From a virus, in the IMG/VR virus record IMGVR_UViG_3300009026_000049, positions 1 through 28,400 of that record: a DNA stretch of 28,400 bases. The stretch is one strand, 5' to 3'. Position numbers and translations under genes: made by a program. Positions within the stretch are counted from its first letter, which is position 1, and each line of letters starts with the position of its first letter. Under the pieces are notes generated by a model that saw only the letters and a program-made list of their open reading frames with translations, had not been told where the DNA came from and did no database searches. Shown piece by piece: positions 1,839-25,608 of the stretch.

Positions 1839-1896
1839 GTTAGAACAGTTAGACTTACAAGTTAAAGAAGCAATTAACAGACATAAAGAGGATTAA
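1666..1896 (+). CDS. Small helical protein overlapping portal 3' end
   Basis: This 76-residue ORF runs +1 relative to the portal frame, and its first 173 nt lie within the portal gene. AGGA at 1655-1658 sits 7 nt before the ATG, which is good ribosome-binding spacing. A later in-frame ATG at 1681 is an alternative start. The product is strongly helical and charged, with W-x-x-L-x-x-H-L near residues 19-26 and a M-Y-R-L-Q-G-K segment near residues 46-52. That pattern resembles small uncharacterised proteins encoded directly after portal genes in other podophages (from memory). Its 3' part, 1839-1896, fills the gap before the next gene, which argues for a real gene. Function unknown; possibly a small structural or assembly protein. 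Confidence 0.6.
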   Translation: MLDKQMARKLNPMVNSPQWEDLKEHLKNLKNLELQALVVATSEQEMYRLQGKLNLLGKLEQLDLQVKEAINRHKED

Positions 1897-1901
1897 ATAA
1901 T

Positions 1902-2069
1902 ATGTTACAGTTTATAAATGAATTTATAGCACTAATACCTACAATAGTTATGTGTGCATCTTTAATATGTGCAGCAACGCCTACACCTAAAGATGATGCA
2001 GCATTATCTAAAGTATACAAATTTTTAGACTGGTGTGCATTAAACATCGGCAAAGCAAAGGAGAAGTAG
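1902..2069 (+). CDS. 55-residue membrane protein with T-P-T-P-K-D-D motif
   Basis: ATG at 1902 follows GAGGA (about 1888-1892) and the ORF ends with TAG at 2067-2069, just before the next gene at 2071. It has one hydrophobic segment (about residues 4-25, containing two Cys), then T-P-T-P-K-D-D, then a short amphipathic tail ending L-N-I-G-K-A-K-E-K. This arrangement (short helix, T-P-T-P-K-D-D, terminal N-I-G-K-A-K) recurs in small uncharacterised phage proteins I recognise but cannot name. A membrane location is inferred from hydrophobicity. It could be holin-like or an accessory virion protein; nothing here decides. Confidence 0.7.
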   Translation: MLQFINEFIALIPTIVMCASLICAATPTPKDDAALSKVYKFLDWCALNIGKAKEK

Positions 2070-2070
2070 A

Positions 2071-3693: not shown

Positions 3694-3703
3694 ACAAACT
3701 AAC

Positions 3704-3737
3704 GATAAAGCCACCCTATTAGCGTAGGCACTTTATC
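3704..3737 (+). promoter_or_regulatory. Intergenic hairpin after the 540-residue gene
   Basis: GATAAAG (3704-3710) pairs perfectly with CTTTATC (3731-3737); inside, CCTA (3715-3718) pairs with TAGG (3725-3728) around a 6-nt loop. It is followed by a short T-rich run (ATTTT, 3738-3742), so it may be a weak terminator or an mRNA-processing or stability element ahead of the scaffolding and capsid genes. Seen directly; function inferred. Confidence 0.5.
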
Positions 3738-3754
3738 ATTTTAATAACCGAAAG

Positions 3755-3812
3755 GCTACCTTTACAAACAAGCCCTCTAGTCGACATAGAGCTACCTTGT
3801 GAAACAAGCCCT
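3755..3812 (+). repeat. Pair of 22-nt direct repeats flanking a small stem
   Basis: Copies at 3755-3776 and 3791-3812 share GCTACCTT and AAACAAGCCCT and differ only in a 3-nt block (TAC versus GTG). Between and partly overlapping them, CTCTA (3775-3779) pairs with TAGAG (3787-3791). The second copy can itself fold, CTTGT with ACAAG around GAA. They lie 18-75 nt upstream of the scaffolding start codon in the largest non-coding gap of the window, so a regulatory role (promoter, RNA-binding or processing site) is plausible. No recognisable sigma-70 or T7-like promoter consensus was identified. Confidence 0.55.
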
Positions 3813-3829
3813 GAGTAGGAGAATAGAAA

Positions 3830-4702
3830 ATGACTAATACAGTCCAACAGGAAGAACAAGCGAATCCTTATAACGCAAAGAAAGATTACCATGTAGAAGA
3901 TACACCTTTTACCCCTGCTAATCAATTATATTTTGAAGAGCCTTCTGAAAAGAATAAACTCTTCGATAGTAATGACATAACTGAAGTTACATCTACAGCC
4001 AATGTTAATACTGAAGAACTGGATGCTCCTTATAAGAGACCAGACTATAAAAAAAGATATGATGATTTAAAAAGACATTATGATAGTAAACTTAATGAGT
4101 TTAAATCTAGAGAACAAGAGTTAATTGAAGAGGCTACTAGTAATAGAACCGAATACAAAGCTCCTAAATCTCCTGAAGAACTAGAAGAGTTTAAAAATAA
4201 CTATCCTGATGTTTACGAAGTCGTAGAAACCGTTGCTCATTTACAATCTGAGACTAAAGCAAAAGTTCTAGAAGAACGCCTTAGTAAACTCCAAGAACGT
4301 GAAAATCAACTAGTACGACAAGATGCAGAAAAAAGATTAATGGAAAGACATTCTGATTTTGAAGATATCAGAAACAGTGATGACTTCCATAGTTGGGCAA
4401 AAGAACAGCATTCATCTATCCAAGCTTGGGTATATGATAATGATAACAATGCTGACTTAGCTTCACGTGCTTTAGACTTGTTTAAAAAAGATTTAGGAAT
4501 TGACCTTCCAAAGGATATGTCATCTTCTAAACAGACTAGAAAATCTGCTGCTGATATGGTCTCTACTAAAACAAAAAGTATAGAACCTAATCAACAAAAG
4601 GTTTGGTCTGAAAAGGAGATTTCTGCAATGAGTGTTGCTGAATTTGATAAATTTGAAAAAGAGATATCAGATGCAATGCAAATGGGCAGAATCGTAAAAT
4701 AA
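3830..4702 (+). CDS. Capsid scaffolding (assembly) protein
   Basis: 290 residues, preceded by AGGAG. Scaffolding proteins template procapsid assembly and leave before or during packaging. Visible features are a disordered acidic N-terminus, Y-K-R-P-D-Y-K-K-R-Y-D-D-L-K-R-H-Y near residues 67-85, a long charged coiled coil, and then H-S-D-F-E-D-I-R-N-S-D-D-F-H-S-W-A with a following helical segment. The last resembles the H-P-D-F...D-x-F-x-x-W segment typical of scaffolding proteins in marine podoviruses. The length fits the T7 gp9-like family, and the position immediately before the major capsid gene supports the assignment. No protease domain is seen. Confidence 0.8.
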   Translation: MTNTVQQEEQANPYNAKKDYHVEDTPFTPANQLYFEEPSEKNKLFDSNDITEVTSTANVNTEELDAPYKRPDYKKRYDDLKRHYDSKLNEFKSREQELIEEATSNRTEYKAPKSPEELEEFKNNYPDVYEVVETVAHLQSETKAKVLEERLSKLQERENQLVRQDAEKRLMERHSDFEDIRNSDDFHSWAKEQHSSIQAWVYDNDNNADLASRALDLFKKDLGIDLPKDMSSSKQTRKSAADMVSTKTKSIEPNQQKVWSEKEISAMSVAEFDKFEKEISDAMQMGRIVK

Positions 4703-4728
4703 CTATTATAACTTAAAGGAAATATATC

Positions 4729-5703
4729 ATGGCTCAATTTTTTGAACCCGGAACTGATACTAATGCAAACTTTGCAAACTCCGTAAGTGGACAAACTAAT
4801 AGTTTCTTCCTACCTTCCGTATACTCTAAGAAAGTTCTAAACTTCTTTAGAAAGGCAAGTGTAGTTGAAGCTATTACTAACACCGACTATGCCGGTGAGA
4901 TATCTGCTTTTGGAGACTCTGTAAAAATCATTGGTGAACCAACAATCTCTGTATCTGATTATACAAGAGGTTCTGACACGACTGCAACTAAACTAACTGA
5001 TGCTGAAACAACTCTTGTTGTTGATAGTGCTAAAGCTTTCAAATTCATCGTAGATGATATTGAGACTAAAATGTCACACGTCAACTTCAAAGAAGTAGCT
5101 TCATCATCTGCTGCGTATGCTCTTAAAGATGCATATGATGCTGCTGTACTAGCAACTATGTTTGCTGGTTGTTCAGCTTCATCACCTGACCATATCATTG
5201 GTTCAGACAGTGCAACTGCTGACGCAACATTAGGACACGCTACTAACTCTGTAGACCTATTAGGCTCAGACGGAACTGGTGTAGATGCTATCGACCTTAT
5301 GGCGAGATTCGCTAAACTATTAGACGAACAAAATGTACCTGAAGAAGGTAGATGGTTCGTAGCTCCTCCTTCATTCTATGAAGAATTAGCTAAAGCTGAC
5401 TCCAAGTTAATGTCTGTTGACTTTAACGCTGGACAAGGTTCTATCAGAAATGGTTTAGTATCAAGTGGTAAACTAAGAGGATTTGACATGTACAAATCTA
5501 ACAATGTTGCTGCTACATCTAACGCTACTGGTAAATGTATGGCTGGTCACATGTCGTCAACTGCTACTGCTAATACTATTCTTTCAACTGAAGTGTTGAG
5601 AGACCCATCATCATTTGGTGATATAGTAAGAGGCTTACATGTCTACGGTGCGAAAGTACTTAGAGATGACGCTTTATGTAGTGCATTCTACGTGATTGAC
5701 TAA
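4729..5703 (+). CDS. Major capsid protein
   Basis: 324 residues with a strong ribosome site (AAAGGAAA upstream of ATG 4729). The sequence is Ala/Ser/Asp-rich with no Cys-rich or catalytic motifs. It begins with a flexible arm and has an S-V-Y-S-K-K-V-L-N-F-F-R-K-A-S segment near residues 32-46, as in T7 gp10A-type HK97-fold capsid proteins of podophages. It follows the scaffolding gene and is followed by a strong terminator, the usual arrangement for the most abundantly made virion protein. Codons carry more GC-ending third positions than the neighbouring genes, consistent with high expression. Family assignment is from resemblance and order. Confidence 0.85.
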   Translation: MAQFFEPGTDTNANFANSVSGQTNSFFLPSVYSKKVLNFFRKASVVEAITNTDYAGEISAFGDSVKIIGEPTISVSDYTRGSDTTATKLTDAETTLVVDSAKAFKFIVDDIETKMSHVNFKEVASSSAAYALKDAYDAAVLATMFAGCSASSPDHIIGSDSATADATLGHATNSVDLLGSDGTGVDAIDLMARFAKLLDEQNVPEEGRWFVAPPSFYEELAKADSKLMSVDFNAGQGSIRNGLVSSGKLRGFDMYKSNNVAATSNATGKCMAGHMSSTATANTILSTEVLRDPSSFGDIVRGLHVYGAKVLRDDALCSAFYVID

Positions 5704-5715
5704 GTTGTCAAACTC

Positions 5716-5744
5716 GGGGGAGGCTTCGGTCTCCTCCACTTTTT
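5716..5744 (+). terminator. UUCG-loop intrinsic terminator after capsid gene
   Basis: A 9-bp GC-rich stem (5716-5724 with 5729-5737, including two G-U pairs) closes a C(UUCG)G tetraloop and is followed after two bases by TTTTT at 5740-5744. The stem stands out in this AT-rich window. It lies 12 nt after the capsid stop, so it would end or attenuate capsid mRNA and set the high capsid-to-tail ratio. Confidence 0.85.
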
Positions 5745-5755
5745 AAGGGATTAAA

Positions 5756-5929
5756 ATGAAAGGTGTAAAACATTATAAAAGAGACGGTACTGAACATAAA
5801 GGTGGCTCTCATAAAATGCCTAACGGGGATTTACATTCTGGCAAGACACACGGTAAGACCAGTGTAAAACTTTTTCATTTTAAAGATTTAAGTAAAAAAG
5901 CAAAGTTAAAAGCTAAAGGTAAAAAATAA
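5756..5929 (+). CDS. 57-residue Lys/His/Gly-rich protein
   Basis: ATG at 5756 follows AAGGGA at 5745-5750 with 5-nt spacing, just past the terminator. The TAA at 5927-5929 overlaps the next gene's ATG by one base (TAATG). The product is very basic, with six His and about 17 Lys, short repeated elements (G-T-E-H-K-G-G-S-H, G-D-L-H-S-G-K-T-H-G-K-T), and a Lys-rich C-terminus. Such composition suits a nucleic-acid-binding or virion cement protein, but no family is recognised. Translational coupling to the adaptor gene supports it being expressed. Confidence 0.7.
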   Translation: MKGVKHYKRDGTEHKGGSHKMPNGDLHSGKTHGKTSVKLFHFKDLSKKAKLKAKGKK

Positions 5930-6696
5930 TGGCTACAACATATCTTAACATAACAAACGAAGTATTAAGAGAACTCAATGAAGTTCCATTAACTTCTGCA
6001 AACTTTACAAACGCTACAGGTATTCAAAAGTTTGTTAAAGATAGTATCAATAAATCTATATTTGATATAGCCAATGAAGAACCACAACTTCCATTCTTTT
6101 CTGCAGGAGCTAGTGGAGGCACTGACCCTTTCTATGGTAACGTAACAGTTGCTACAGTTGCAGGAACAAGATGGTACACTCTTAAGTCTGATAGTTCTAG
6201 TATTACTACAGACTACTCATCAATAGATTGGGATGACTTTTATGTTACAACAATCAACGTAAGTGGAGAAACAACACCTTATGTCTCTAAAGGTTTAAAG
6301 TTTCTTACAAATACAGACTGGACAAGATACTACAGAGACAGTGAGAATGCAGATGATGCAGATACTCAAAACCATGGAGAGCCTAGATTTGTAATCAAGT
6401 CTCCTGACAATAGAAAGTTTGGGTTAAGCCCAATACCTGATAAGGTTTATAATATACACTTTTATGCTTTTGTAAGACCGACTGCGTTATCAGCACACGA
6501 TGACACAATCACTTTACCAGAGCAGTACAGTAATATAATAACAGCTAGAAGTCGTTATTACATTTGGCAGTTTAAAGAAAGCCCACAACAAGCAGCTTTC
6601 GCATTGGATGATTATAAGAAAGGTATGAAGTATATGAAATCAAACCTAATGAATCCAGCTCCAAAGTATATGACAGACGATAGAACTTACTTTTAA
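5929..6696 (+). CDS. Head-tail adaptor / tail tubular protein A-like
   Basis: 255 residues, start codon overlapping the previous stop. The N-terminus, containing I-T-N-E-V-L-R-E-L-N-E-V-P-L, then V-K-D-S-I-N-K-S-I-F-D-I, is a helical pattern I recognise from proteins at this position in many marine podophages and associate with the T7 gp11-type adaptor ring below the portal. The C-terminal half has aromatic and helical segments (Y-Y-I-W-Q-F-K near 207-213) typical of the adaptor helical bundle. It lies between capsid and nozzle-like genes, the usual place for this function. No direct catalytic motif; the assignment is by resemblance and order. Confidence 0.6.
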   Translation: MATTYLNITNEVLRELNEVPLTSANFTNATGIQKFVKDSINKSIFDIANEEPQLPFFSAGASGGTDPFYGNVTVATVAGTRWYTLKSDSSSITTDYSSIDWDDFYVTTINVSGETTPYVSKGLKFLTNTDWTRYYRDSENADDADTQNHGEPRFVIKSPDNRKFGLSPIPDKVYNIHFYAFVRPTALSAHDDTITLPEQYSNIITARSRYYIWQFKESPQQAAFALDDYKKGMKYMKSNLMNPAPKYMTDDRTYF

Positions 6697-6699
6697 AAT

Positions 6700-8301
6700 A
6701 TGGCACGTTCACAACCTTTTACCGTAGCATGTGCAGGTGGCTTAGTAACATCAGCTAACTCAATAGACTTGTTACGTACACCCGGAGTTGCTACAGTTTT
6801 ACAAAACTTTGAAGTATCTATTGAAGGTGGGTATAGACGTATTAATGGGTTTAGTAAGTTTGGTGCAGGAGATGCAGTTCAACCTACAGGTGGTGTAACA
6901 AATATATTAGGTACACAGCCTTATGCAGATGGTGTTGTAGTTACTGCAGGTACTAATATATACTTTACACAAGACGGTATTACATGGATAACAATAAATA
7001 GATTATCAGCAGGTAGTGGAGATAATTACTCAACCTTTACAGGTAAAAGTATTGCAGCAAGAACTGGACAAGGACAATGCCAGTTTGCAATGTTTGAAGG
7101 TGCTGGACAAGATTACGGAAGTATTATAATAGCTGATGGAGTTAATGAACCCTTTAGTTTTAGAATGGAAGGTACAGGAAACTTAAGTACTAGAACATAC
7201 TTTACAGAAGAAATAACAGTTACAGGTACTAAAGGTGTACAGTTTATTACAGCTCATGACCATCATTTAATAGCTGCTGGTGTAACTGATAATGAAAATA
7301 CAGTTTACTATAGTGTTAATAATGACCCTACATCTTTTAGTGGTACTGGTGCAGGTGCAGTAACTATATCAGATAAGATAGTAGGTATTAAAGGTTTCCG
7401 TACAGACTTATTTATATTTTGTGAAAACAGTATTCATAAACTTATAAACATTAATAATTCAAGTACAGTAGCAGTAGTACCTGTTGCTGAAAGTGTAGGA
7501 TGTTTAAGTGGCTACAGTATTCAAGAGATTGGTGGTGATTTAATATTTTTAGCACCTGATGGTTTAAGAACAGTTGCTGGTACATCAAGAATTGGTGACG
7601 TTGAGTTAGGTACAGTTAGTAAATCAATACAGCCTATTATAACAGAGTTAGCACAAAATGTCAATGAATATACAATAAGTAGTGTAGTATTGAGAGAAAA
7701 ATCACAATATAGATTATTTTATAGTGATACAGACTTGACAAATGCTTCACAAAAAGGTATAATAGGTACATTAAGACCTAATGGTTTTGAGTGGTCTGAA
7801 ATGTTAGGTATGGAAGTTACATCTATAGGTTCAGGATTTGATACCAACGGTATTGAAAAATATTATCATGGTGATACAAACGGTTATGTTTATTTACATA
7901 ACTCAGGAGATAATTTTGATGGTGCTGCAATAGATGCAAGATATCAAACACCTGATTACGATTATGGAGACTTTGGAACTTTAAAAACTTTACACTACGT
8001 TAAACTATCTATAGGTCCTGAAAATGAAGTACAGCCTTCAGTAAGGGTTAGATTTGATTATGATAGTAACGAAACACCACAACCCGAAGATTATTTATTA
8101 GACAGCGTACCAGCTCCATCAATATTTGGTACAGCTTTATTTGGCACTGCAAAGTTTGGAGCATCTGAACAGCCTTTAGTTAGGTTAGCATTACAAGGTA
8201 GTGGTTACTCTAATAGCTTTAGAATATTAACAAACGATACAAACGCACCATACACAATAAACGGACTATACATAGATTACATTCCATCAGGTAGGAGATA
8301 A
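6700..8301 (+). CDS. Tail nozzle / DNA stabilisation-like protein
   Basis: 533 residues. It starts M-A-R-S-Q-P-F with L-L-R-T-P-G-V-A near residues 25-32 and E-G-G-Y-R-R-I-N-G-F near 42-51. Short beta-rich, Gly-containing strands follow throughout, as in the propeller-like P22 gp10 / T7 gp12 class that seals or extends the tail tube. An F-G-T-A-L-F-G-T-A-K-F-G-A element lies near residues 475-490. It sits between the adaptor-like protein and the tail fibre, where the nozzle gene is usually found. It follows the adaptor with a 3-nt gap and so is probably co-translated. Fold is inferred; function moderately certain. Confidence 0.6.
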   Translation: MARSQPFTVACAGGLVTSANSIDLLRTPGVATVLQNFEVSIEGGYRRINGFSKFGAGDAVQPTGGVTNILGTQPYADGVVVTAGTNIYFTQDGITWITINRLSAGSGDNYSTFTGKSIAARTGQGQCQFAMFEGAGQDYGSIIIADGVNEPFSFRMEGTGNLSTRTYFTEEITVTGTKGVQFITAHDHHLIAAGVTDNENTVYYSVNNDPTSFSGTGAGAVTISDKIVGIKGFRTDLFIFCENSIHKLININNSSTVAVVPVAESVGCLSGYSIQEIGGDLIFLAPDGLRTVAGTSRIGDVELGTVSKSIQPIITELAQNVNEYTISSVVLREKSQYRLFYSDTDLTNASQKGIIGTLRPNGFEWSEMLGMEVTSIGSGFDTNGIEKYYHGDTNGYVYLHNSGDNFDGAAIDARYQTPDYDYGDFGTLKTLHYVKLSIGPENEVQPSVRVRFDYDSNETPQPEDYLLDSVPAPSIFGTALFGTAKFGASEQPLVRLALQGSGYSNSFRILTNDTNAPYTINGLYIDYIPSGRR

Positions 8302-8306
8302 ACACA

Positions 8307-11300
8307 ATGGCAGGTTACACAAGACAAAGTACATTCGCAGACGGAGATACAATCACTGCTGCACTATTTAATAATGAGTACAACCAAGTTTTAAATGCTT
8401 TTAGCAATACAGGTGGTCACAAACATGATGGCACTGCAAACGAAGGACCAGTTATAGGTATTATTGGTGATGCAGGAGAAACTTCTCCAAACAATAAAGT
8501 CTTAATAGACACAACAAATAATTACATTGAATTTTATGTACAAGTATCAGGTTCTTCTGTACAACAGTTATACATAGCAGATGGAGCTATAATACCTGTT
8601 ACAGACAGTGATGTTGACTTAGGTACAACGGGTTTAAGATTTAAAGACGCATACATTGACACAGTAACAACAACTGGTAATGTAGCAGTAGGTGGTAATC
8701 TAACAGTTACAGGTACAACTACTTTTAACGGTGGTACAATCACTATGGGTGATGCGGCTACTGATAACGTAGTCTTTGGTGCTGATGTTGATTCAAACAT
8801 TATACCTGATGATGATGACAGCTATGACCTAGGTAGCTCTACACAAGAATGGAGAAACTTATACATAGACGGTACAGCACATATAGATACACTAGACGTA
8901 GATGTAAATGCTACTATTGCAGGAACTCTAGGTGTTACAGGCGTACTAACGGGTACAAGCTTAGACATCTCTGGAGACATTGATGTAGACGGTACTACTA
9001 ATCTTGATGTTGTGGACATTGATGGTGCAGTTGACATGGCTACAACTCTTACAGTTGGTGGTGAAATAGCAGCAGCAAGTTTAGATATATCAGGCAACGT
9101 AGATGTAGACGGTACACTTGAAACAGATGCACTATCTATAAATGGTACAGCAGTTACAAGTACTGCAGCCGAATTAAACCTTTTAGACGGTAAAGCTTTC
9201 CTTGACGAAGATAACATGGCATCTAATAGTGCTACAGGTATTGCTTCTCAACAATCCATTAAAGCTTATGTAGATACACAAATTACTGCAGAAGACTTAG
9301 ACATTACTACAGACAGTGGAACTATTGCAATTGACTTAGATAGTGAAACATTAACTGTATCAGGTGGTACAGGTCTTGATAGTTCTGCAACAGGTAATGC
9401 AGTTACTTTAGCAATTGATAGTACAGTAGTAACTCTTACAGGTTCACAAACTCTTACAAACAAATCACTAACTGCTCCTACGCTTACAGGTACTGCTGTA
9501 GTAGCTTCACTAGACATCTCAGGCGATATAGACGTAGACGGAACTACTAACCTAGACGTAGTAGATATAGATGGTGCTGTAGACTTTGCATCTACAACTG
9601 CTCATGCAGGTAATGCAACTTTTGCTGACAGTGCTAAAGCTATCTTCGGAGCAGGTTCAGATTTACAGATTTATCACGATGGTAGTAATAGCATTATAGA
9701 TGACGCAGGAACAGGTAATTTATTTATTCGTGGGACAAATATAAACATACAAAACCTAGATGCCGACCCTGATGAAAATATGATTACTGCTGTAGCAAAC
9801 GGAGCGGTTACTCTTCTTCACAACAACGCAGCAAAACTAGCCACAACCTCAACAGGTATAGACGTTACAGGTACAGCCACTATTGATGGAGGTTCATCAG
9901 AAAATACAGTTTTAACATTAGATTCAAGCACTGCTAACACCTATCTTAAAATAACTGATTCAAACTCTACTAATGGAGCATTTATTGGTGCGACTACTAA
10001 TGATTTAAATTTTTATCCAAATAATGTTTTGTCTGCAAAGTTTGCTGCTGGAGGAGACATCTCCTTCTACAACGCAGCAGGTTCTAGCCAAGCTCTATTC
10101 TGGGATGCAAGTACTGAACGATTGGGTATTGGAACGACTAGTCCTAATCAAAAGTTAAATGTATCAGGTGGCAGAAGTTATTTTGGTGCAAACAACGAAG
10201 CATACGCTATTGGTGTTGGATATAACGGAACAAGAACAGCAGCTAACCAAAATTATTTTATTGGTGCTACAGATGCAACAGCTCCCGACTTGCAGTTTTC
10301 AAATTCAGATGGCGGAGAAAAAGTAAGAATTACTCATGCTGGAAATGTTGGAATTGGAACGACTAGTCCTACAGGTATAACTTCAGGTGTAACATCTTTA
10401 AGCATAAGTGACACAGGTTCAAAAGGAAACGGAGATAAAAACGGAGTTTTATCTTTTAAAACTGATGATGCAAGTTATACAAATACTTACTCTGATGGAG
10501 TTACTGCTGAAATAAATTCAATATCTGAATCTGGAACAGGTGCAGCATATGGTCTAGGCTTTGTTACTGGAACTATAACAAGTTCAAACAGAGCTGAAAG
10601 AGTACGTATTAGTGCTACAGGAGATGTTGGAATTGGAGTTACTGCTCCTGCTCAAGCACTTGATGTATCAGGAAATATTTTATCAAGAGGAACTTCTACA
10701 GAAGATAGATTTATTGAAATTGGTACAGGCAGAAGTGGTAATGGCTATGCTTTTTTTGATTTAGTTGGTGATGCTACTTATACAGATTATGGTTTAAGAA
10801 TTATTAGAAACAATAGTGGAGCTAATACAACAAGTGTTATTCAACACAGAGGAACAGGAACTTTAGGATTACTAACGCAAGAAGCAGCACCTATCCACTT
10901 TAGCACATCAAACACAGAAAGAATGCGTATTACAGACGATTCGGTTGGAATTGGAACGAGCGTATTTACAAATTCTTACAAAACATATATTGAAGGTCTT
11001 GACCAAGACACAGCAAACCTTACAGACTCAGGAAATCACGGAGCTACTTTATATTTAAGAGCTACCGCTAATGCAGCAGGTAGTGGTGGTGCTGTAGCTT
11101 TTGGTACTACCTTTGGAAATAAAACACCTTTTGCAGCTATAAAAGGTCATGTTACAGATGGTGCTACTAATACAGTAGGAGATTTATGTTTCTCTACTAG
11201 GGCAAGTGTCTCTGCTACAGCTTTAACAGAAAGAATAAGACTTTCAGCATCAGGCAAAGTTGGAATTGGAAATAGTAGTCCAACAAGAAATTTGGTAATT

Positions 11301-12698
11301 CAAACATCCGACCAAACTGATGTAGCAATTATTGCAGCCAATGACCAAAATTCAATATTAAATTTTGGCGATACTGATGATGATAATGTAGGAAGAATAC
11401 AATACAACCATGCTACAAACTTAATGACCTTCAGAACTAATACTGCTGATGCTATGCATATAAACTCATCAGGCAATGTTGGAATTGGAACGAGCAGTCC
11501 TACAGTCGGTAAATTACAAGTAAATGATGGTTCAGGTGCAATAACAGCTCTTACAAGAACATCAGGCTCAACTAGTGGTGATTTAGGAACTATAAGATTT
11601 GGCAATACAGATGTAGATTCTAACTTAGTAAATATTGTTGCATTTCAAGATGGTGCTACCAATTCAGGTGCTTTAAAATTTGAAACACAAGCGTCAGGTG
11701 GTGCTACAACAGAACGCATGAGAATAGACTCATCAGGCAATGTTGGAATTGGAAGCAGTAGTCCTTCTGCCAATTTAAGTTTAGGAAAAAGTATTGGCTA
11801 TAATGCAGATAGTGCTTTATTTAGTGATATTTCTATAAACGATACTGCTGTTAATAATAATGCTGTTTATCGTTGGAGAACAGGTATGACTGGTAATGCT
11901 ACAGGTCATTCACTAACATTTTCAACATTAGGTAGGACTGAAAGTAGTTATGTAGAAAGAATGCGTATTGACTCATCAGGTAATGTTGGAATTGGAATTA
12001 GTAGTCCTGATACAAAACTTCATGTATATAAAGGAAGTGCAGGTAGTGTAACAGCACTATCAGACAGCACATTAGTTTTAGAAAATAGCACACATAATTA
12101 CCTAACATTCCTATCACCAAATGATAAAGAACAGGCAATAATATTTGGAGATGCTGGTAGTAACAATGTTGGTAGTGTAGGATATAACCACAATACAGAT
12201 AATTTAGGTATATCTGCGGCTGATGATATTATTTTTTACACAAGTGGTACAACACGAGGTAGATTTACAGACAATGGATTATGCTTTAACGCAGACACAG
12301 CAGCAGGTAACGCACTTGACGATTATGAAGAAGGTACAGCTACATTAACACTAGCCAGTACAGGAACTTCTCCTACAATAGCACAAGGAAATACCTTTAC
12401 TATTGCTTACACAAAAATAGGAAATCTAGTAAGGTTTGTAGGTTATACAGCAGCTAGAAATATTACTAATGCAGGAACAGGCTCAGCTAAAATTACTGGA
12501 TTACCCTTTGCTCAAGCTGGTTCTTATTATGGTCAAGTAACATTTACTCATAATACAATGTTTACAGATACTGTAACTGGATATATTGAATCTGGAAATA
12601 CATTTTTCTATCCTATAATTATGAATACATTAAGCACTGGAAGTTATCCAACAGGTATAAAATATTTAATGGTACAGGGTTTATATCATACAGCATAA
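8307..12698 (+). CDS. Modular tail fibre / host-recognition protein
   Basis: 1463 residues, SD AGGAG before ATG 8307. Residues 1-110 form a virion-attachment-like head. Residues ~110-420 are Asp/Thr/Val-rich beta repeats including V-T-S-T-A-A-E-L-N-L-L-D-G and S-L-T-A-P-T-L-T-G-T-A, both common in marine phage fibres. Residues ~605-1235 hold eight modules marked by [VL]-G-I-G-x-[ST]-x-x followed by Pro, usually preceded by E-R-[MV]-R-I-x-x-[ST]-G. The C-terminus starts at L-D-D-Y-E-E-G-T (~1336) and looks like a beta-sandwich receptor-binding tip. I see no C-terminal intramolecular chaperone (S74) signature. It probably forms trimeric fibres that bind the host surface. Confidence 0.85.
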   Translation: MAGYTRQSTFADGDTITAALFNNEYNQVLNAFSNTGGHKHDGTANEGPVIGIIGDAGETSPNNKVLIDTTNNYIEFYVQVSGSSVQQLYIADGAIIPVTDSDVDLGTTGLRFKDAYIDTVTTTGNVAVGGNLTVTGTTTFNGGTITMGDAATDNVVFGADVDSNIIPDDDDSYDLGSSTQEWRNLYIDGTAHIDTLDVDVNATIAGTLGVTGVLTGTSLDISGDIDVDGTTNLDVVDIDGAVDMATTLTVGGEIAAASLDISGNVDVDGTLETDALSINGTAVTSTAAELNLLDGKAFLDEDNMASNSATGIASQQSIKAYVDTQITAEDLDITTDSGTIAIDLDSETLTVSGGTGLDSSATGNAVTLAIDSTVVTLTGSQTLTNKSLTAPTLTGTAVVASLDISGDIDVDGTTNLDVVDIDGAVDFASTTAHAGNATFADSAKAIFGAGSDLQIYHDGSNSIIDDAGTGNLFIRGTNINIQNLDADPDENMITAVANGAVTLLHNNAAKLATTSTGIDVTGTATIDGGSSENTVLTLDSSTANTYLKITDSNSTNGAFIGATTNDLNFYPNNVLSAKFAAGGDISFYNAAGSSQALFWDASTERLGIGTTSPNQKLNVSGGRSYFGANNEAYAIGVGYNGTRTAANQNYFIGATDATAPDLQFSNSDGGEKVRITHAGNVGIGTTSPTGITSGVTSLSISDTGSKGNGDKNGVLSFKTDDASYTNTYSDGVTAEINSISESGTGAAYGLGFVTGTITSSNRAERVRISATGDVGIGVTAPAQALDVSGNILSRGTSTEDRFIEIGTGRSGNGYAFFDLVGDATYTDYGLRIIRNNSGANTTSVIQHRGTGTLGLLTQEAAPIHFSTSNTERMRITDDSVGIGTSVFTNSYKTYIEGLDQDTANLTDSGNHGATLYLRATANAAGSGGAVAFGTTFGNKTPFAAIKGHVTDGATNTVGDLCFSTRASVSATALTERIRLSASGKVGIGNSSPTRNLVIQTSDQTDVAIIAANDQNSILNFGDTDDDNVGRIQYNHATNLMTFRTNTADAMHINSSGNVGIGTSSPTVGKLQVNDGSGAITALTRTSGSTSGDLGTIRFGNTDVDSNLVNIVAFQDGATNSGALKFETQASGGATTERMRIDSSGNVGIGSSSPSANLSLGKSIGYNADSALFSDISINDTAVNNNAVYRWRTGMTGNATGHSLTFSTLGRTESSYVERMRIDSSGNVGIGISSPDTKLHVYKGSAGSVTALSDSTLVLENSTHNYLTFLSPNDKEQAIIFGDAGSNNVGSVGYNHNTDNLGISAADDIIFYTSGTTRGRFTDNGLCFNADTAAGNALDDYEEGTATLTLASTGTSPTIAQGNTFTIAYTKIGNLVRFVGYTAARNITNAGTGSAKITGLPFAQAGSYYGQVTFTHNTMFTDTVTGYIESGNTFFYPIIMNTLSTGSYPTGIKYLMVQGLYHTA
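8961..9584 (+). repeat. Identical 25-residue fibre repeat, divergent DNA
   Basis: Segments 8961-9035 and 9510-9584 encode the same 25 residues, L-D-I-S-G-D-I-D-V-D-G and onward to I-D-G-A-V-D, 183 codons apart. Sixteen of the 25 codons differ, all synonymously. A looser third copy, L-D-I-S-G-N-V-D-V-D-G, lies between them. Confidence 0.85.
10122..12008 (+). repeat. Eight G-I-G-T-S-S-P fibre modules
   Basis: The DNA core GTTGGAATTGGAA (first copy slightly divergent) recurs eight times at spacings of roughly 220-320 nt, near 10122, 10346, 10624, 10943, 11258, 11477, 11743 and 11982. Each marks the start of a beta module. Spacers between cores are unrelated in sequence, and lengths stay in frame, so these are protein domain repeats rather than a CRISPR-like array. 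Confidence 0.85.
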
Positions 12699-13668: not shown

Positions 13669-16600
13669 GTGGATAGAAGAAGTAACAATATATTAAAAAA
13701 GTATAGAAGTAGTGCTAAACCAGCAACGCCTTCTAAAAAAAAGTCAGTAAAGGTACCTTCTAAAAAATCAAGTCCTCCTAAAAAAAATGATGGACCTATT
13801 AAAGAAAAACCAAGTATTGTTACACCACCTAAAAAACAACCAATAAAGGTACCACCAAAGAAAGTAGTACCACCTAAAAAACAACCAATAAAAGTACCAC
13901 CAAAGAAAGTAGTACCACCCAAAAGAGAACCAATAAAGGTACCACCAAAGAAACCGGCTCCGACTCCTGCTCCTACCCCAGCACCGACTCCAGCCCCAAC
14001 ACCTGCACCAACACCAGCTCCAGTAAAGGACCCCATAAAGGCACCACCACAGAAAGCAGTACCAGTTCCAAAAGAGGACATAAATATGAAAAACAAAGAA
14101 GATTATATAAGACCAAAAGCTCGTATAGGAGGACCTAAAAAAGGTGGACCTGCTAAAGACCCTAGAGATGATTTTATATCTATAGGTGGCGTAGGTGGTG
14201 GACAAGGTGGTCCGGGAGAAAATGAACCAACACCTGCACCAACTACAGCTCCAACTACAGCTCCAACAGCAGCTCCAACAGCAGCCCCTACTCCTGCACC
14301 AACTGCAGCTCCTTCTACAAGTCCTGAAATAGAAAGAGAAACAGAAACTCCTGTAAATGTAGATAAAGTAACAGGAGATGTTACTCCTTATAGTACTTAT
14401 CAAAAAGACGCTGCATTAGAAGCTGCAAGAAAAGAAAGAATTAGAGAAACAGGATTACAAACTGAAGCTGCTGCAAGGGGAGAAGTACCTGAAGGTGCTA
14501 AACTTAAAGATGCTGAACAAGTAGGTGGTATAGACCCTAAAACTGGAGAGCCTATAGTACGAGACCAAGTTACTACTGAAATGGCTGATACTACAAAAGT
14601 AACTACAGAAGGTGCTAAAGCAGTTGAGGATGAAACAGTTTCAACCGGTACTGTAACAGAAGGAACAGTTGCAGAACAAGTACAAGCAGATACTTATGAG
14701 GCTACAATAGTAGACCAAAGTCCTGAAGTTAAAGCTGCTTTAGGTGAGTTATCTGAAGGAGCAAAAGCTAAAGTTACTGAAATAAGTAATTTAACAGACC
14801 CTGCAACTTTTGCAAGTATTTCACAAAAAGTCGCAGAAGGTGCTAAAGCAAAAGATATTGAAGGTGTTTTATCTTCAGGAGCTTTTGTCACAGAAGGAGG
14901 CGTTAGAGCTTCTGATGTTAATGTATCAGAAACTCCTGATGCAGAGAAAAAGGAACGTGAAGCTATTACAGGTATCCCTGCTACAGATGGAAAAGCTGCT
15001 GAAATTTTAGGAGTAGTTAATTATGATGCTGTTAAACAAAGAGCAGTAACAGGACAAGCTGCAAAAGGTGCTGCTGCAGAAATGGTTGCAGAAGTTGGTA
15101 ATATACCACCTGAAATTGCTGCTGCTATTGTAGAAGACCCTGCAACTGTAGAAGCTCAAGTAGATACAAATCCTGTAGAAGTTAATGCTGCTATTGCTGC
15201 GTTACCTACAGAAGCTTTAGTATCTTCACAGATGGAAACTTTATTAGGAGGCATGGAAGACGGTAAGATTCCAATGTGGGCTAAACCTGCTGTAGATGCA
15301 ATGAATGCTCAAATGGCTCAAAGAGGTTTAAGTGTTTCTACTGTAGGTAGAGATGCTTTGTTTAACTCTATTATTCAAAGTGCTATGCCTATAGCACAAA
15401 GTAATGCACAAGCTTTACAAACTAGAGCAGCTCAAAACCTAGGAAACCAACAACAAGCAAACTTACAACAAGCTACACAAGAGCAACAATTAAGAATGCA
15501 AAACTTGGCAAATCGTCAAGATGCTGCAAGTCAAACTGCACAGATGTCTCAGCAAATGAAGACAATGCAAAGCCAGTTTAACCAACAAGCTGTAATGACT
15601 ACTGCTGACCAACAGCAACAAATGAGGATGCAAAACCTGCAGAATAAACAACAAGCTGCAGTAGTTAATGTTGAAAATCAACAACAGATGAACATGCAAA
15701 ACCTCGGTAATGAGCAACAGCTAAACATGACAGAGCTTCAGATAGATGCTGCTAGAGCTGGAGCAGACCAGTCTGCAGAGAATCAAAGTCGTATGGCAGA
15801 GATGCAAGTTGCTGCTGATTTCTTAGCTAAGAATGCTGGTTTTAAACAACAAATGGAATTAGCTAATTTATCTAATGACCAACAAATGAGACTTGCAAAC
15901 TTATCAGCTCTTAATCAAGCCAGTTCAGAAAATCTTAGTGCTGAACAACAAACAGAACTTGCAAATCTTAATAAGAACATGCAGACTAATCTTTTACAAG
16001 CTAACATTGCTAAAGATATGGGACTTGCACAGCTTAATGTGGACCAACAAACTGCTATATATAATGCTACAACGACTGCTGGTATGAATATGGCAAACTT
16101 TAATGCTGACCAACAAAGAGTGTTAGCTGATAGTAAGTTTATGCAAACAGTAGCTATTACAAACATGAATGCTGAACAACAATCTATTATGCAAAATGCT
16201 ACAGCTATGGCATCTTTAGATTTAGCTACAGTAGACCAAAGAACTAAGTTAGCAGTTAGTAATGCTCAAAACTTTTTACAAATGGATATGGCTAATTTGT
16301 CTAATCAGCAACAGTCTAATATGATGAAGGCTCAACAAGAACAACAAAGATTATTGTCTAATCAGTCTGCTGAAAATGCATCAAAACAATTTAATTCTTC
16401 AAGTGAAAATCAAACTAATCAGTTTATGGCTAATCTTAATGCACAAATGAGTCAGTATAATGCTTCACAAAACAATGCAATGAGTCAGTTTAATGCTTCT
16501 CAAAACAATGCTGCAGAAGCTAGAAGAGCTGGTAGAGATGCTGATTTAAATAAGTTTGATGCACAGCTTATAGCTCAAACAGACCAGTTTAATTCTCAAC

Positions 16601-17001
16601 AAGACTTTGCAAGAGCTAGTTGGAATGCACAGAACTCTGCTGCTGTTGAGGCTTCTAATGTTTCTTGGAGAAGACAAGCAAATACAATTAATACTGCTGC
16701 ACAAAATCAAATTAATGCACAGAACGCACAGAATGCTTTTGGTATGTCTATGCAATCTCAGTCATTTTTATGGCAAGAACTTAGAGACCAAGCAGACTTT
16801 GATTTTAGAGCAGGTGAAAACGAATTAAATAGACAGGCTCAAATACTATCAACAGCTATTGCTAACGAAGGTAAAGCTGGTGAAAGATATGATGATTTTT
16901 TAACAACTTTAATAAGTACATTAGGTGGTTCATATAGAACTGGATTGACTAGTGGCTCCACAGGTGGTGGTAATTCAAGCAGTGGTAATCAAAGAAAATA
17001 A
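13669..17001 (+). CDS. Giant Gln/Asn-rich hendecad-repeat virion protein
   Basis: 1110 residues, GTG start with AAGGA at 13656-13660 (8-nt spacing). Residues 1-118 are a Lys/Pro linker with three 15-residue tandem repeats and (T-P-A-P)5. Residues ~118-225 are Gly/Pro/Ala-rich with further A-P-T repeats. Residues ~225-570 are Ala/Glu/Thr-rich helices. W-A-K-P-A-V-D-A-M followed by G-R-D-A-L-F-N-S-I-I-Q (near 545-570) resembles a segment conserved in marine phage internal virion proteins (from memory). Residues 590-1062 are 43 consecutive 11-residue repeats. Gene order (after tail genes, before the glucosaminidase protein) suggests an internal core/ejection protein. No catalytic domain. Confidence 0.75.
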   Translation: MDRRSNNILKKYRSSAKPATPSKKKSVKVPSKKSSPPKKNDGPIKEKPSIVTPPKKQPIKVPPKKVVPPKKQPIKVPPKKVVPPKREPIKVPPKKPAPTPAPTPAPTPAPTPAPTPAPVKDPIKAPPQKAVPVPKEDINMKNKEDYIRPKARIGGPKKGGPAKDPRDDFISIGGVGGGQGGPGENEPTPAPTTAPTTAPTAAPTAAPTPAPTAAPSTSPEIERETETPVNVDKVTGDVTPYSTYQKDAALEAARKERIRETGLQTEAAARGEVPEGAKLKDAEQVGGIDPKTGEPIVRDQVTTEMADTTKVTTEGAKAVEDETVSTGTVTEGTVAEQVQADTYEATIVDQSPEVKAALGELSEGAKAKVTEISNLTDPATFASISQKVAEGAKAKDIEGVLSSGAFVTEGGVRASDVNVSETPDAEKKEREAITGIPATDGKAAEILGVVNYDAVKQRAVTGQAAKGAAAEMVAEVGNIPPEIAAAIVEDPATVEAQVDTNPVEVNAAIAALPTEALVSSQMETLLGGMEDGKIPMWAKPAVDAMNAQMAQRGLSVSTVGRDALFNSIIQSAMPIAQSNAQALQTRAAQNLGNQQQANLQQATQEQQLRMQNLANRQDAASQTAQMSQQMKTMQSQFNQQAVMTTADQQQQMRMQNLQNKQQAAVVNVENQQQMNMQNLGNEQQLNMTELQIDAARAGADQSAENQSRMAEMQVAADFLAKNAGFKQQMELANLSNDQQMRLANLSALNQASSENLSAEQQTELANLNKNMQTNLLQANIAKDMGLAQLNVDQQTAIYNATTTAGMNMANFNADQQRVLADSKFMQTVAITNMNAEQQSIMQNATAMASLDLATVDQRTKLAVSNAQNFLQMDMANLSNQQQSNMMKAQQEQQRLLSNQSAENASKQFNSSSENQTNQFMANLNAQMSQYNASQNNAMSQFNASQNNAAEARRAGRDADLNKFDAQLIAQTDQFNSQQDFARASWNAQNSAAVEASNVSWRRQANTINTAAQNQINAQNAQNAFGMSMQSQSFLWQELRDQADFDFRAGENELNRQAQILSTAIANEGKAGERYDDFLTTLISTLGGSYRTGLTSGSTGGGNSSSGNQRK
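13828..14022 (+). repeat. Lys/Pro 45-nt tandem repeats and T-P-A-P run
   Basis: Three 45-nt units (13828-13872, 13873-13917, 13918-13962) encode P-K-[KR]-[QE]-P-I-K-V-P-P-K-K-[VP]-[VA]-P. Directly after, 13963-14022 encodes five T-P-A-P units whose codons vary synonymously. Lys-Pro and Ala-Pro runs form stiff extended linkers, as in TonB. A second A-P-T run lies at about 14230-14310. Confidence 0.9.
15436..16854 (+). repeat. 43 uninterrupted 11-residue (33-nt) repeats
   Basis: Residues 590-1062 divide exactly into 43 units of 11 with no insertion or deletion. Typical units are N-L-S-N-D-Q-Q-M-R-L-A, N-L-S-A-E-Q-Q-T-E-L-A and N-A-S-Q-N-N-A-M-S-Q-F. Position 1 is usually Asn, position 2 small or hydrophobic, positions 6-7 often Q-Q, position 10 Leu/Met/Gln. 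Hendecad periodicity is compatible with a long continuous helix or right-handed coiled coil. Confidence 0.9.
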
Positions 17002-17013
17002 CAAGGAAACAAT

Positions 17014-18057
17014 ATGGGATTTTTAAGAAAAGTAGGTAGGAAAGTAAAAAAGAAACTAAACAAAGTGTTTGGTGAGAAAGTAGGAGGCATACTAGGAATG
17101 GTAGGTTTATACTTTGCTATGGGTGCTGTTGCTAAAGGACTTAGTGGGTGGGCTAAAAGTACGTTTGGTGCTGGTAAAAGTACTGCAGATGTTGCCAACG
17201 TAGCACAACAAGCTTCAGAAGTTTCAAAGACTGCTGCAGATGTTAAAAGTGCAACAGATAGCACTGCTGTTATTACTGAAGCTGCTAAAAAAGGAGTTGA
17301 TGCAACTGTAACCTCTACCGGAGCTAGTGTAGAAACTTTAATAGCTGAGTCTACAACCAATGCTGAAAAGTTTAATAGCTGGGTAGGAGGACAAGAAAGT
17401 CTTCTTAATCAAGGTAAACTTCCTGTAGAAGTTAATCCTAGTCTTACAGATACTGTAGTTAATAGTATTTCTAATGAAGAAGTTTATAAACAAACAACAG
17501 GAGAAGTTTTTAAATACTTAGAACAACCTGCTTTAGATGTAAATAGAATAGCTGAAAGTGTTACAACAGCCGAACAAGCTGCTACTGCATCTCAAACAGA
17601 AATGGCTCGTCAAGGAATAGACTTTACTAAAGGAATTACTTCGCCTAAAGCAAGTATAGAAGGAACTAAATTAGCACAAGAAAGTGCTACAGGATTTCAA
17701 AAATTTACAACAGACCCTATAGGCTCTACTGTAGATTATGTAGGAACTAAAGCAAAAGAAGCAGGAGACTATGTAAAATCAGGAGCTTTTGTACCTGATA
17801 TAGCAGAAGTAGCTTTAACTACTGCTGCAAATAACGCACTTATGGAAAAAGAAGAAGTAATGGGTTTTGGTAGACCAGCACAAGGACAACCAATGATGAC
17901 TGCAGCTCAAGGCAATCATCTAGCTGCTGTACAAGCACAGCCGGGTTATGCAAACTTAACTAACATGAGAAGCTTTACAGACCTAGCAAATCAAACACTA
18001 TACGGAACAGGTTCACCATCATATTTACAAAACGTATATCAACCAATTAAAATATAG
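17014..18057 (+). CDS. Putative internal virion protein, basic/hydrophobic N-terminus
   Basis: 347 residues, SD AAGGAAA. The first ~18 residues are strongly basic (K-V-G-R-K-V-K-K-K-L-N-K). Then comes a Gly-rich hydrophobic helix (G-G-I-L-G-M-V-G-L-Y-F-A-M-G-A-V-A, ~24-40) that could insert in a membrane. The middle is Ala/Thr/Ser/Glu-rich helix. The C-terminus (M-T-A-A-Q-G-N-H-L-A-A-V-Q-A-Q near 290-304, ending S-P-S-Y-L-Q-N) is a distinct domain. A membrane-active helix in a protein of the ejection-gene cluster suggests a role in DNA delivery across the envelope, by analogy with T7 gp14. No family firmly recognised. Confidence 0.65.
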   Translation: MGFLRKVGRKVKKKLNKVFGEKVGGILGMVGLYFAMGAVAKGLSGWAKSTFGAGKSTADVANVAQQASEVSKTAADVKSATDSTAVITEAAKKGVDATVTSTGASVETLIAESTTNAEKFNSWVGGQESLLNQGKLPVEVNPSLTDTVVNSISNEEVYKQTTGEVFKYLEQPALDVNRIAESVTTAEQAATASQTEMARQGIDFTKGITSPKASIEGTKLAQESATGFQKFTTDPIGSTVDYVGTKAKEAGDYVKSGAFVPDIAEVALTTAANNALMEKEEVMGFGRPAQGQPMMTAAQGNHLAAVQAQPGYANLTNMRSFTDLANQTLYGTGSPSYLQNVYQPIKI

Positions 18058-18066
18058 GAAATCATT

Positions 18067-18663
18067 ATGGCAATGACAGAAAAAGCAGCACAGTTTGTGC
18101 AAGGAAACATGGAAAGAGGAAGACCTATTCCGGGTCAAAGCCTTACAAACGACCCTAGTCAACCTTATAACTGGGAAAAAGCTCCTGAGTTTACTAACGC
18201 TAAAGAAGCTATGCTGTACGTTTTTGAGAATTTAACAGTCCCTGAAACTACTGCTAATATTTTATTATCTTTAAGTAAAGGTATTGGTGTTATTGACATT
18301 GCATCTATAACATTGTATACTGGCTTTACTGAAGGTAAATGGAATCCTGATATGATGATGTTATTAATGGAACCAACTATGTATATGGTTATGGCATTAG
18401 CAGAAAAAGCAGAGTTAGACTTTGTTATGGACTCTTCAGAAGAAGTAGGTGAAGAAGAAATACTAGGAGACAAAGCTATACAGCAAATAGAAGAAGGCAT
18501 AGGTTCATTAGATGCTATGAGAAAACAAGCTGCTCAAAGAGTAAGCCCACAGTCAGTCCCACAGGAAGTTAGAGAAGTAATAGAAGAAGCAAAGATAGAA
18601 CCTAGTATTTTAGAAAAAGTAGAAGAAGTAAAAAGTAATAGTTTATTAGCAAGAGAGGAATAA
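18067..18663 (+). CDS. Conserved phage virion protein with R-P-I-P-G-Q-S-L-T motif
   Basis: 198 residues. The N-terminal R-G-R-P-I-P-G-Q-S-L-T-N-D-P and central G-K-W-N-P-D-M-M-M-L-L-M-E-P-T-x-Y-M-V-M-A-L-A-E-K-A are patterns I recall from uncharacterised structural proteins of marine phages, including cyanophages. The centre is hydrophobic and Met-rich (about residues 95-120) and the C-terminus acidic and helical. A short 9-nt gap follows the 347-residue gene and only 1 nt precedes the next gene, so it is co-translated with the ejection cluster. Function unknown. Confidence 0.7.
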   Translation: MAMTEKAAQFVQGNMERGRPIPGQSLTNDPSQPYNWEKAPEFTNAKEAMLYVFENLTVPETTANILLSLSKGIGVIDIASITLYTGFTEGKWNPDMMMLLMEPTMYMVMALAEKAELDFVMDSSEEVGEEEILGDKAIQQIEEGIGSLDAMRKQAAQRVSPQSVPQEVREVIEEAKIEPSILEKVEEVKSNSLLAREE

Positions 18664-18664
18664 G

Positions 18665-20050
18665 ATGGCTGGAAAAGAAATATTAAGTGGATTATTAACT
18701 AGACAAAATCAAGGAAGTACTGGTGGTACTTTTAAAGATATAGCTGCTGATTTTTTTAGTGGTTCATCTAACGATAGCAAAAGACGTAGAAATGTATTGA
18801 TAGGAACTGCATTATGGAATGCAAAAGAATCTGCTATGCAAAATAATGTTATGAAGAATTTACAAGAAAATGAAACTAAACGTACTTTTGAACTAGCGGG
18901 GCTTACTCAAAAATGGGATGCTTACAATACTTTAATTAATGACGATAGAGCATTTAAAAAAGACAAAAATTATTTTTTTACTAAAGCAGAAGCAGAGTTT
19001 AATAGGTTAAATCCTAATTATGATACTGAAACTAAAGATTCAGGAGACACAGCACAGGAAAGTAAACTTACAGAAATAAATGATTTACAAAAAAGATATG
19101 AAGAAATACATAATAATAAAATGACCACAGGTAATATAACTGGTAAAAATTATATGACTAAAGAAGCTTTCTTTAAGCCTTTTGAAGATTATTATAGTCA
19201 ACAAGAAACACAACTATCTGCTCCTAAAAATGTTAGTATAATACATAATGCATGGGACAGAGTAACAAGTAACTTTAAAAACAAAGATAAACTAGAAAGC
19301 AAATCAGAACAACTTACACTTGAACAAGCTAATAGAAATACTTTTGGATATTTAGTAGAGCCTGATGAAATACAAGGTAAAGCAGCTATTGAAATATATA
19401 GAAAAAATAAAAAAGGTTTTGATACTACTGCCTTTGAAATGGACAATGACGATGCTAAATTTAATATTTTAAAACTACAAGGCATATCTCAAGAACAAAA
19501 AAATTATTTAATTAGAAACATAGGAGAAGGAAATTACACTTCAAATGCACTACAAGCTAAGATAGTTGTTTTATCTGCAGACTTTGACCCTTATATAAAT
19601 GCACGAAATGTAGCAGGTAATACTTTTGAAAAACGATATAAAGATTCAGGTAAAGAAATACCGGAACAAAAAACACCTGAGTATCAAGAGTATGTATTAA
19701 GAAAAACTAATTTTATAGACATTGAAACTAAACAAGGAGATAAAGAGCTTAATGAACTTAGAAGTAATATGTTTATGTTAAAAGATTTACAAGTCAATCC
19801 TGTAAAAAATGCTAAAGCAATTACTTTTTTAGAAACTAAAATTAAAGAACAAGGATTGGGTAAAATACAAATAATGGCTTTAAATACAGCCATGTCTAGT
19901 GTAACAGACCCTAATGTAGTGGCTGTTTTAGAACTAGCTGGTAAAGACTCTGGTAAAACTTCTGAAGAACTAAAGTCTGACCATATGGCAAGTGTGTATG
20001 AAGGTATCTTAGATTTTTCAGATGCTATATTAAAATCGGAAAATGAATAA
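18665..20050 (+). CDS. Unrecognised 461-residue protein of the ejection cluster
   Basis: I do not recognise this family. The N-terminus (M-A-G-K-E-I-L-S-G-L-L) carries a short amphipathic helix. The rest is highly charged, Lys/Asn/Glu-rich and mostly helical, with no signal peptide, no clear membrane span and no Cys or His cluster. It sits between the 198-residue conserved protein and the 1556-residue hydrolase-bearing protein, with gaps of 1 and 2 nt, which implies one translational unit. By position it is a candidate internal core protein (T7 gp15 slot), which is inference only. Confidence 0.6.
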   Translation: MAGKEILSGLLTRQNQGSTGGTFKDIAADFFSGSSNDSKRRRNVLIGTALWNAKESAMQNNVMKNLQENETKRTFELAGLTQKWDAYNTLINDDRAFKKDKNYFFTKAEAEFNRLNPNYDTETKDSGDTAQESKLTEINDLQKRYEEIHNNKMTTGNITGKNYMTKEAFFKPFEDYYSQQETQLSAPKNVSIIHNAWDRVTSNFKNKDKLESKSEQLTLEQANRNTFGYLVEPDEIQGKAAIEIYRKNKKGFDTTAFEMDNDDAKFNILKLQGISQEQKNYLIRNIGEGNYTSNALQAKIVVLSADFDPYINARNVAGNTFEKRYKDSGKEIPEQKTPEYQEYVLRKTNFIDIETKQGDKELNELRSNMFMLKDLQVNPVKNAKAITFLETKIKEQGLGKIQIMALNTAMSSVTDPNVVAVLELAGKDSGKTSEELKSDHMASVYEGILDFSDAILKSENE

Positions 20051-25440: not shown

Positions 25441-25603
25441 TAAAAAGATACTACAGATAGTTAATCTTTCTCCAAGTGAGTCTTGGATAGAAAAGATTGT
25501 AGATGTACACCCTATGAGACAGATTACTATAGCCTCTATTGTACAAGTAGTAGTGTTTGGCTTTATGCTAGGTGCTTTTTGGATAAACTCACAAATATTT
25601 TAA
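25412..25603 (+). CDS. 63-residue single-pass membrane protein
   Basis: Overlaps the preceding gene by 29 nt and fills the space up to csgF. The N-terminus is very basic (K-K-T-K-E-K-T-N-K-K). The C-terminal third is one membrane helix (I-T-I-A-S-I-V-Q-V-V-V-F-G-F-M-L-G-A-F-W, ~38-57) ending with a five-residue tail, so a cytoplasmic N-terminus is expected. No family recognised. Its size and topology suit a lysis regulator or small holin. Confidence 0.6.
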   Translation: MEKKTKEKTNKKILQIVNLSPSESWIEKIVDVHPMRQITIASIVQVVVFGFMLGAFWINSQIF

Positions 25604-25608
25604 AGATT

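Follow-up and report, generated by a model that had tools for sequence, protein, structure and literature searches.

Whole-unit length change in an array of 11-residue units suggests a rod or tube for DNA delivery in podophage-type viruses

The stretch of DNA analysed here, referred to as the window, is a 28.4-kb virus record in which a single large ORF encodes 43 consecutive units of 11 residues. This protein is annotated just as hypothetical in its relatives among the HMO-2011-type phages and pelagiphages. The locus raises the question of what keeps so long a repeat in strict phase, and what a protein of this kind could do at the head of an ejection-type gene cassette.

The array protein and its boundaries

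The array protein is 1110 residues long and includes a low-complexity N-terminal part, two conserved anchors and the array, as follows.

13669..17001, + strand: array-protein ORF, 1110 aa, GTG start, heading the ejection-type cassette
13824..14319, + strand: low-complexity N-terminal part with 45-bp Lys/Pro repeats ahead of PTPAP and TAAPT repeats (Tandem Repeats Finder)
15262..15435, + strand: conserved N-terminal anchor, residues ~532–589, PMWAKPAVDAMNAQMAQRGLSVSTVGRDALFNSIIQSAMPIAQ..., a helix running into the array
15436..16854, + strand: array of 43 gapless 11-residue units, 473 aa
16657..16854, + strand: conserved C-terminal anchor, inside units 38–43, NVSWRRQANT...FLWQELRDQAD

The unit of the Lys/Pro repeat is 15 residues (45 bp) and is followed by Pro/Thr/Ala repeats; the length of this low-complexity part varies among homologues. 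The N-terminal anchor was defined by invariant alignment columns, an HMM anchor and a helix in the predicted model, and the C-terminal HMM anchor is present in 212 of 213 distinct homologues.

The first-pass annotation of this DNA had divided residues 590 to 1062 into 43 Asn/Gln-rich units of 11 without an indel, encoded by diverged DNA, and this description is confirmed. The residues from 590 (encoded from 15436) to 1062 (ending at 16854) are gap-free and number 473, or 43 x 11. Identity autocorrelation of the protein is 0.21–0.24 at lags of 11, 22, 33 and 44 (z of 8.1, 9.5, 8.3 and 8.6, 2,000 shuffles), with z at or below 2.0 at all remaining lags up to 45. The DNA exhibits maxima at 33, 66 and 99 nt (0.38, 0.42 and 0.40), and the other tested multiples of 3 give approximately 0.28–0.31. 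An 11-position profile of the array scores 43 of 43 units positive in phase, a result that is partly circular as the profile was built from the array itself. The unit preceding the array (579–589) is in phase but weaker and the stretch from 1063 onward fails the profile, so the array boundaries are correct to within one unit. The array contains 90 Q, 74 A and 65 N among its 473 residues, is also rich in L, S and M, and lacks proline. There are three W and 16 F residues, with F occurring regularly at position 11 in units ~29–35 only. DNA identity between the units averages 37% and no pair exceeds 73%, which indicates that the array arose long ago and is no recent satellite. Profile searches of PHROGs, Pfam and the PDB gave no match for the array protein, and megablast identified no DNA-level relatives in the phage collection.

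Whole-unit length change among homologues

Homologues were identified in 26 phage records by tblastn against the phage collection and at over 200 IMG/VR loci, where viral contigs were queried with single proteins and with alignments, for a total of 213 distinct ORFs. Array length was measured between two HMM-defined anchors, a PIAQ-type helix before the array and an NVxWRR motif near its end. Both anchors are found in 207 of the 213 proteins, and the other six run off their contigs. The inter-anchor distance takes 14 values between 148 and 643 residues, and every one of them equals 5 modulo 11 (207/207 homologues), with core identity among these phase-conforming proteins going down to approximately 16%. 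This series corresponds to 13 to 58 units, or about 22 to 96 nm if fully extended; the window protein has a distance of 423. As a control, the N-terminal flanks have 132 distinct lengths and the C-terminal tails 44, and all eleven classes modulo 11 are occupied. If phase were indifferent, 14 lengths would fall into one class with a probability of about 3e-14, a rough figure that assumes independent lengths. The array has changed length at least 15 times on a tree of the gapless core. Single-unit steps are seen in the runs 148/159/170/181 and 412/423/434/445/456, and close homologues differ by −11, +55 and +165 residues in the array and by indels of 1–3 residues immediately after it. The first-pass annotation had read the strict phase as selection on repeat register and had proposed that homologues be checked for out-of-phase indels; none appeared among the proteins with both anchors, and the modulo-11 rule beside flanks that are not quantised supports that reading. 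Over proteins this diverged, such a rule is a rare and sharp evolutionary signature of a structural unit.

Among isolates, the distance is 148 in phiM6 and RHph_N3_19, 159 in HTVC033P and CRP-3, 170 in CHOED, 181 in Slicky01 and MQM1, 225 in CRP-345, 313 in HTVC115P and HTVC103P, and 335 in ctYwJ313. HMO-2011 gp25, HTVC115P gp47, CRP-345 gp44, CHOED_013, phiM6_25 and MQM1_018 belong to the same family by tblastn. The HMO-2011 gp25 protein and the other isolate homologues share the anchors, the modulo-11 rule and similar neighbours with the window protein and are annotated as hypothetical, but their array lengths differ from that of the window. The family includes abundant oceanic HMO-2011-type phages and pelagiphages, and the group is mostly marine.

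The longest arrays (L016–L018, 643 residues between anchors) gained their 220 extra residues through insertions of 55 and 165. L016 still bears the trace of a tandem duplication of 10 units, with 67% identity in its best 5 units. A near-identical homologue (L001, 5794–8671) is encoded in two overlapping frames upstream of the array, which is probably due to a frameshift in the contig.

A predicted helix with two hydrophobic seams

The AlphaFold model of the C-terminal part of the protein (residues 845–1110, 105 sequences) consists of two long helices without strand, one of which is unbroken over 155 residues with a pLDDT of 84–96 along most of its length. The model of the whole array is likewise all-helical but weaker, with a mean pLDDT of 65 and a pTM of 0.32, and its middle is broken at ANLS motifs into helices of 22–33 residues, some with a pLDDT of approximately 90. 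Covariation by mean-field DCA, from shallow alignments of effectively 45–66 sequences, is stronger at offsets 3, 4 and 7 than at 2, 5 and 6 throughout the array, its middle included (p=2e-8). A single unbroken helix of about 70 nm, as considered in the first-pass annotation, is therefore only a possibility, since AlphaFold gives a long continuous helix for the C-terminal part alone and breaks the middle every 22–33 residues.

These breaks could be taken to mean that the array is a folded bundle or solenoid, in which helices of 22–33 residues turn back at N-cap motifs (ANLS) to give a compact fold, and the 11-residue phase would reflect repeat packing and not a long helix. The whole-array model is consistent with this around residues 703–783, where pLDDT is close to 90, as is a lag-22 autocorrelation that exceeds lag 11 in most homologues. 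A bundle nevertheless appears unlikely, as the better-supported C-terminal model continues through 155 residues, the broken model has a low pTM, the hydrophobicity spectrum lacks a clear 22-residue component, and length steps of a single 11-residue unit exist.

The hydrophobicity spectrum has a power of 0.1 at 3/11, 38 at 4/11 and 30 at 5/11, with a 95% permutation limit of 4.7. Power at 11/4 and 11/5 with none at 11/3 places two opposite hydrophobic seams on an 11/3 wheel, composed of positions 2/6/10 and 4/8/11. The two-position face (3/7) is without large hydrophobics and is 71% N/Q/S/T and 13% charged, and the three-position face (1/5/9) is 32% charged, with position 5 the most variable. 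Position 1 of the unit is a conserved Asn. A classical hendecad coiled coil and an apolipoprotein or LEA-type 11-mer helix were rejected, since the array has no single hydrophobic stripe. Of the hendecad coiled coil first suggested for this array, the alpha-helix stands (model and covariation), but it is not a conventional coiled coil. The proposed Q/N-rich face is likewise upheld in part: there is a polar face like that of a known DNA-conducting tube, but the helix has two polar faces, one uncharged and the other charged and variable.

A helix carrying two opposite seams can pack against a copy of itself on either side, which would allow helices to assemble into a sheet or tube. Parallel packing in register would lead residues at equal height in opposite seams to covary, and the signal at i+1/i+2 agrees with this. 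Opposite-seam pairs at i+2 covary at 1.26 sd against 0.38 sd for polar-face pairs in the core alignment (p=0.014) and at 0.92 against 0.36 sd in the alignment of the long class (p=0.003), and none was seen at i+9 in the same alignments. As these alignments are shallow, the seam covariation is only suggestive of parallel, in-register packing. The phase rule, the helix and the two-seam pattern are well supported. Foldseek searches with the long-helix model gave no match in the PDB, and in the viral library they returned sequence relatives followed by non-significant matches that included tape measures, with TM-scores below 0.2.

The ejection-type cassette and a proposed delivery rod or tube

The window virus is known from its genes alone, which include a podophage-type module (PHROGs). 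The array gene lies between the following features.

3..12698, + strand: upstream head-tail module with portal, major head protein, two tail proteins and tail fibre (PHROGs)
17014..18057, + strand: next gene, lineage-specific, 347 aa, homologues in 8 loci only, no family match
18067..18663, + strand: 198-aa protein conserved alongside the array gene, with homologues at 178 loci, 11 of them in isolates
18665..20050, + strand: 461-aa cassette gene, in position and size like the gp15/gp20 ejection proteins (synteny; PMC8954989)
20053..24723, + strand: 1556-aa cassette gene with a C-terminal glucosaminidase domain (PF01832, E 1.6e-21)

The 198-aa family carries the motif PIPGxSLT...PWExPP, and many members end in a C-terminal GLMARR. 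The 1556-aa protein also matches PHROGs for virion structural protein and endolysin, and is a candidate gp16-like peptidoglycan-cutting ejection protein. Both it and the 461-aa protein diverge fast. Downstream of the array gene, the examined isolates carry a gene of ~180 aa ahead of larger ones, typically one of 365–615 aa and one of 817–1893 aa; the HTVC103P and CRP-3 stretches stop short of covering both of the larger genes, and additional small genes intervene in some phages. The cassette with its glucosaminidase-bearing large protein is syntenic in short-tailed phages, and the gene order of the isolates resembles the layout of podophage ejection proteins, whose sizes are known (PMC8954989). 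By eye, the isolate annotations gave no obvious relation between array length and the size of the large cassette protein. In the pelagiphage HTVC115P (L025), the gene immediately after the array gene (10522–10971) is annotated as a toxin-activating lysine-acyltransferase.

The array phages have the podophage structural module in common with T7 and P22, and the genes gp14-gp15-gp16 of T7 and gp7-gp20-gp16 of P22 share with the cassette a small, medium and large order in which the large protein is peptidoglycan-cutting (PMC8954989). Compared with this three-gene set, the array protein and the 347-aa protein are extra. No PHROG, Pfam or PDB match indicated homology of the array protein to the T7 or P22 ejection proteins, and to our knowledge these contain no hendecad array.

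One of the two nearest precedents is the phiX174 H tube. It is built from ten helices, each starting with three hendecads, and its inner surface is mainly Gln, Asn and Arg (PMC7354561). The H protein (PDB 4JPP) is, like the array, a hendecad helix with a narrow two-position Gln/Asn-rich face, seams on both sides of it and a charged face opposite. If the Gln residues in H-hendecad positions 1 and 8 are assumed to face inward, which is our own reading of a table in PMC7354561, the geometry predicts a single register. Scored against the array profile, the H hendecads reach +11.5 bits in this register and approximately −13 to −54 in the other ten; the match is modest (p=0.035 on permuting the hendecad columns). 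The H protein delivers the genome, a role that for the array protein would be assigned by analogy. H has three hendecads followed by heptads in 121 residues and 17 nm, whereas the array has 43 hendecads; H is a solved decamer from an ssDNA microvirus, whereas the array protein is known from sequence in a dsDNA podophage-type virus. Neither the PDB profile search nor Foldseek gave a sequence or fold relationship to the solved H.

We propose, with a probability of roughly 0.5, that the array protein is an ejection-type helix of variable length whose copies pack sideways to form a rod or tube, lined with amides, for genome delivery. The C-terminal half of the protein would form an extended alpha-helical array of 11-residue units, and through the opposite seams (2/6/10 and 4/8/11) copies would associate laterally to give a rod or tube, the chains probably being parallel and in register. 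By analogy with the H tube, its interior would be lined by the narrow Gln/Ser/Asn face without charge (3/7), and the charged, variable face (1/5/9) would look outward. The chains may be stored in the head, exit via the portal ahead of the DNA and help to form a conduit through the envelope. Each unit would add ~1.65 nm, and length change by whole units would keep the seams in register. We infer virion location, oligomerisation, a channel and an order of ejection; packaging, ejection and tube formation are suggested by synteny, the resemblance to the H tube and ejection-protein biology. A literature search found no virion proteomics or structure for any family member. The array would measure 71 nm fully extended, and a straight helix of this length exceeds both the span needed for a Gram-negative envelope and the width of a podophage head. 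The chains may therefore be partly folded or staggered, or may extend past the inner membrane.

The whole-unit length change over more than 200 relatives suggests a rod or tube for DNA delivery whose length is tuned unit by unit, and offers a direct way into the question of how podophages make their conduit through the envelope. That dsDNA podophages carry an H-like, amide-lined DNA tube, mostly much longer than that of phiX174 and evolving in length by whole units of ~1.65 nm, is a tentative extension that we consider possible but doubtful. If the tube reading is true, the phiX174 pilot tube, the tape measures and the podophage ejection proteins would be linked by one helical design, and the natural series of 13 to 58 units could be used to ask what sets the length of a conduit. 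No description of an 11-residue array in short-tailed phages, with an ejection-type cassette, two seams and an amide face, was found in the open-access literature. That a phage protein can change length by whole units is already known from siphophage tape measures, the second of the nearest precedents, which consist of a variable number of 11-residue units (PMC3271669).

This likeness, which extends to copy number and whole-unit length differences, raises the alternative of a tape-measure-like, length-setting rod or scaffold that acts inside the virion and is not a channel. Its helices would span or fold in the head or along the portal axis and organise the core or DNA, and the protein would be ejected incidentally. 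Tape-measure proteins are among the weak fold matches, but these are not significant (E at or above 0.02). Siphophage tape measures set the length of long tails and carry W/F markers, whereas the array units are Q/N/A-rich and most of them lack such markers. The isolated relatives are short-tailed, on the evidence of the HMO-2011-type RCA phages (PMC6918029), and so have no long tail to measure, and their array gene lies in an ejection-type cassette. An internal rod of this kind is an improbable account of the array.

The phase might also be a mutational register, in which recombination between repeats inserts or deletes entire units, and indels that break the phase are simply uncommon. The visible duplication in L016 speaks for this, but identity between the window units is too low for efficient recombination, and the same proteins carry small odd indels just outside the array and none inside it, which makes this account very unlikely. 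A beta-solenoid with 11- or 22-residue coils, to which the hydrophobicity peak at 11/5 (2.2 residues) and the conserved Asn at position 1 might point, was rejected as barely credible, because a two-faced 11/3 helix gives that same peak as its second harmonic, the composition is Q, A, M, L and E with little V, I, T or G, both AlphaFold models lack strand, and mid-array covariation is lower at i+2 than at i+3/4 (p=1e-4).

Apart from the delivery rod or tube proposed for the array protein, two other regions of the window are of note. An ORF between the portal and the next head gene (2071–3693) contains a PARLSDGEFVF segment to which many tape-measure and endolysin PHROG profiles match over only ~50–120 residues, and this segment is predicted to be a mobile domain that these families have in common, not a tape measure. 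Near the end of the window (25483–28398), a series of successive ORFs that overlap one another gives matches to CsgF (E 3e-17), CsgG (E 2e-48) and a FecR domain (E 2e-11), and an unmatched ORF among them (26844–27560) is curlin-like and Asn/Asp-rich. These ORFs appear to form a curli-secretion-like gene set on a phage genome.
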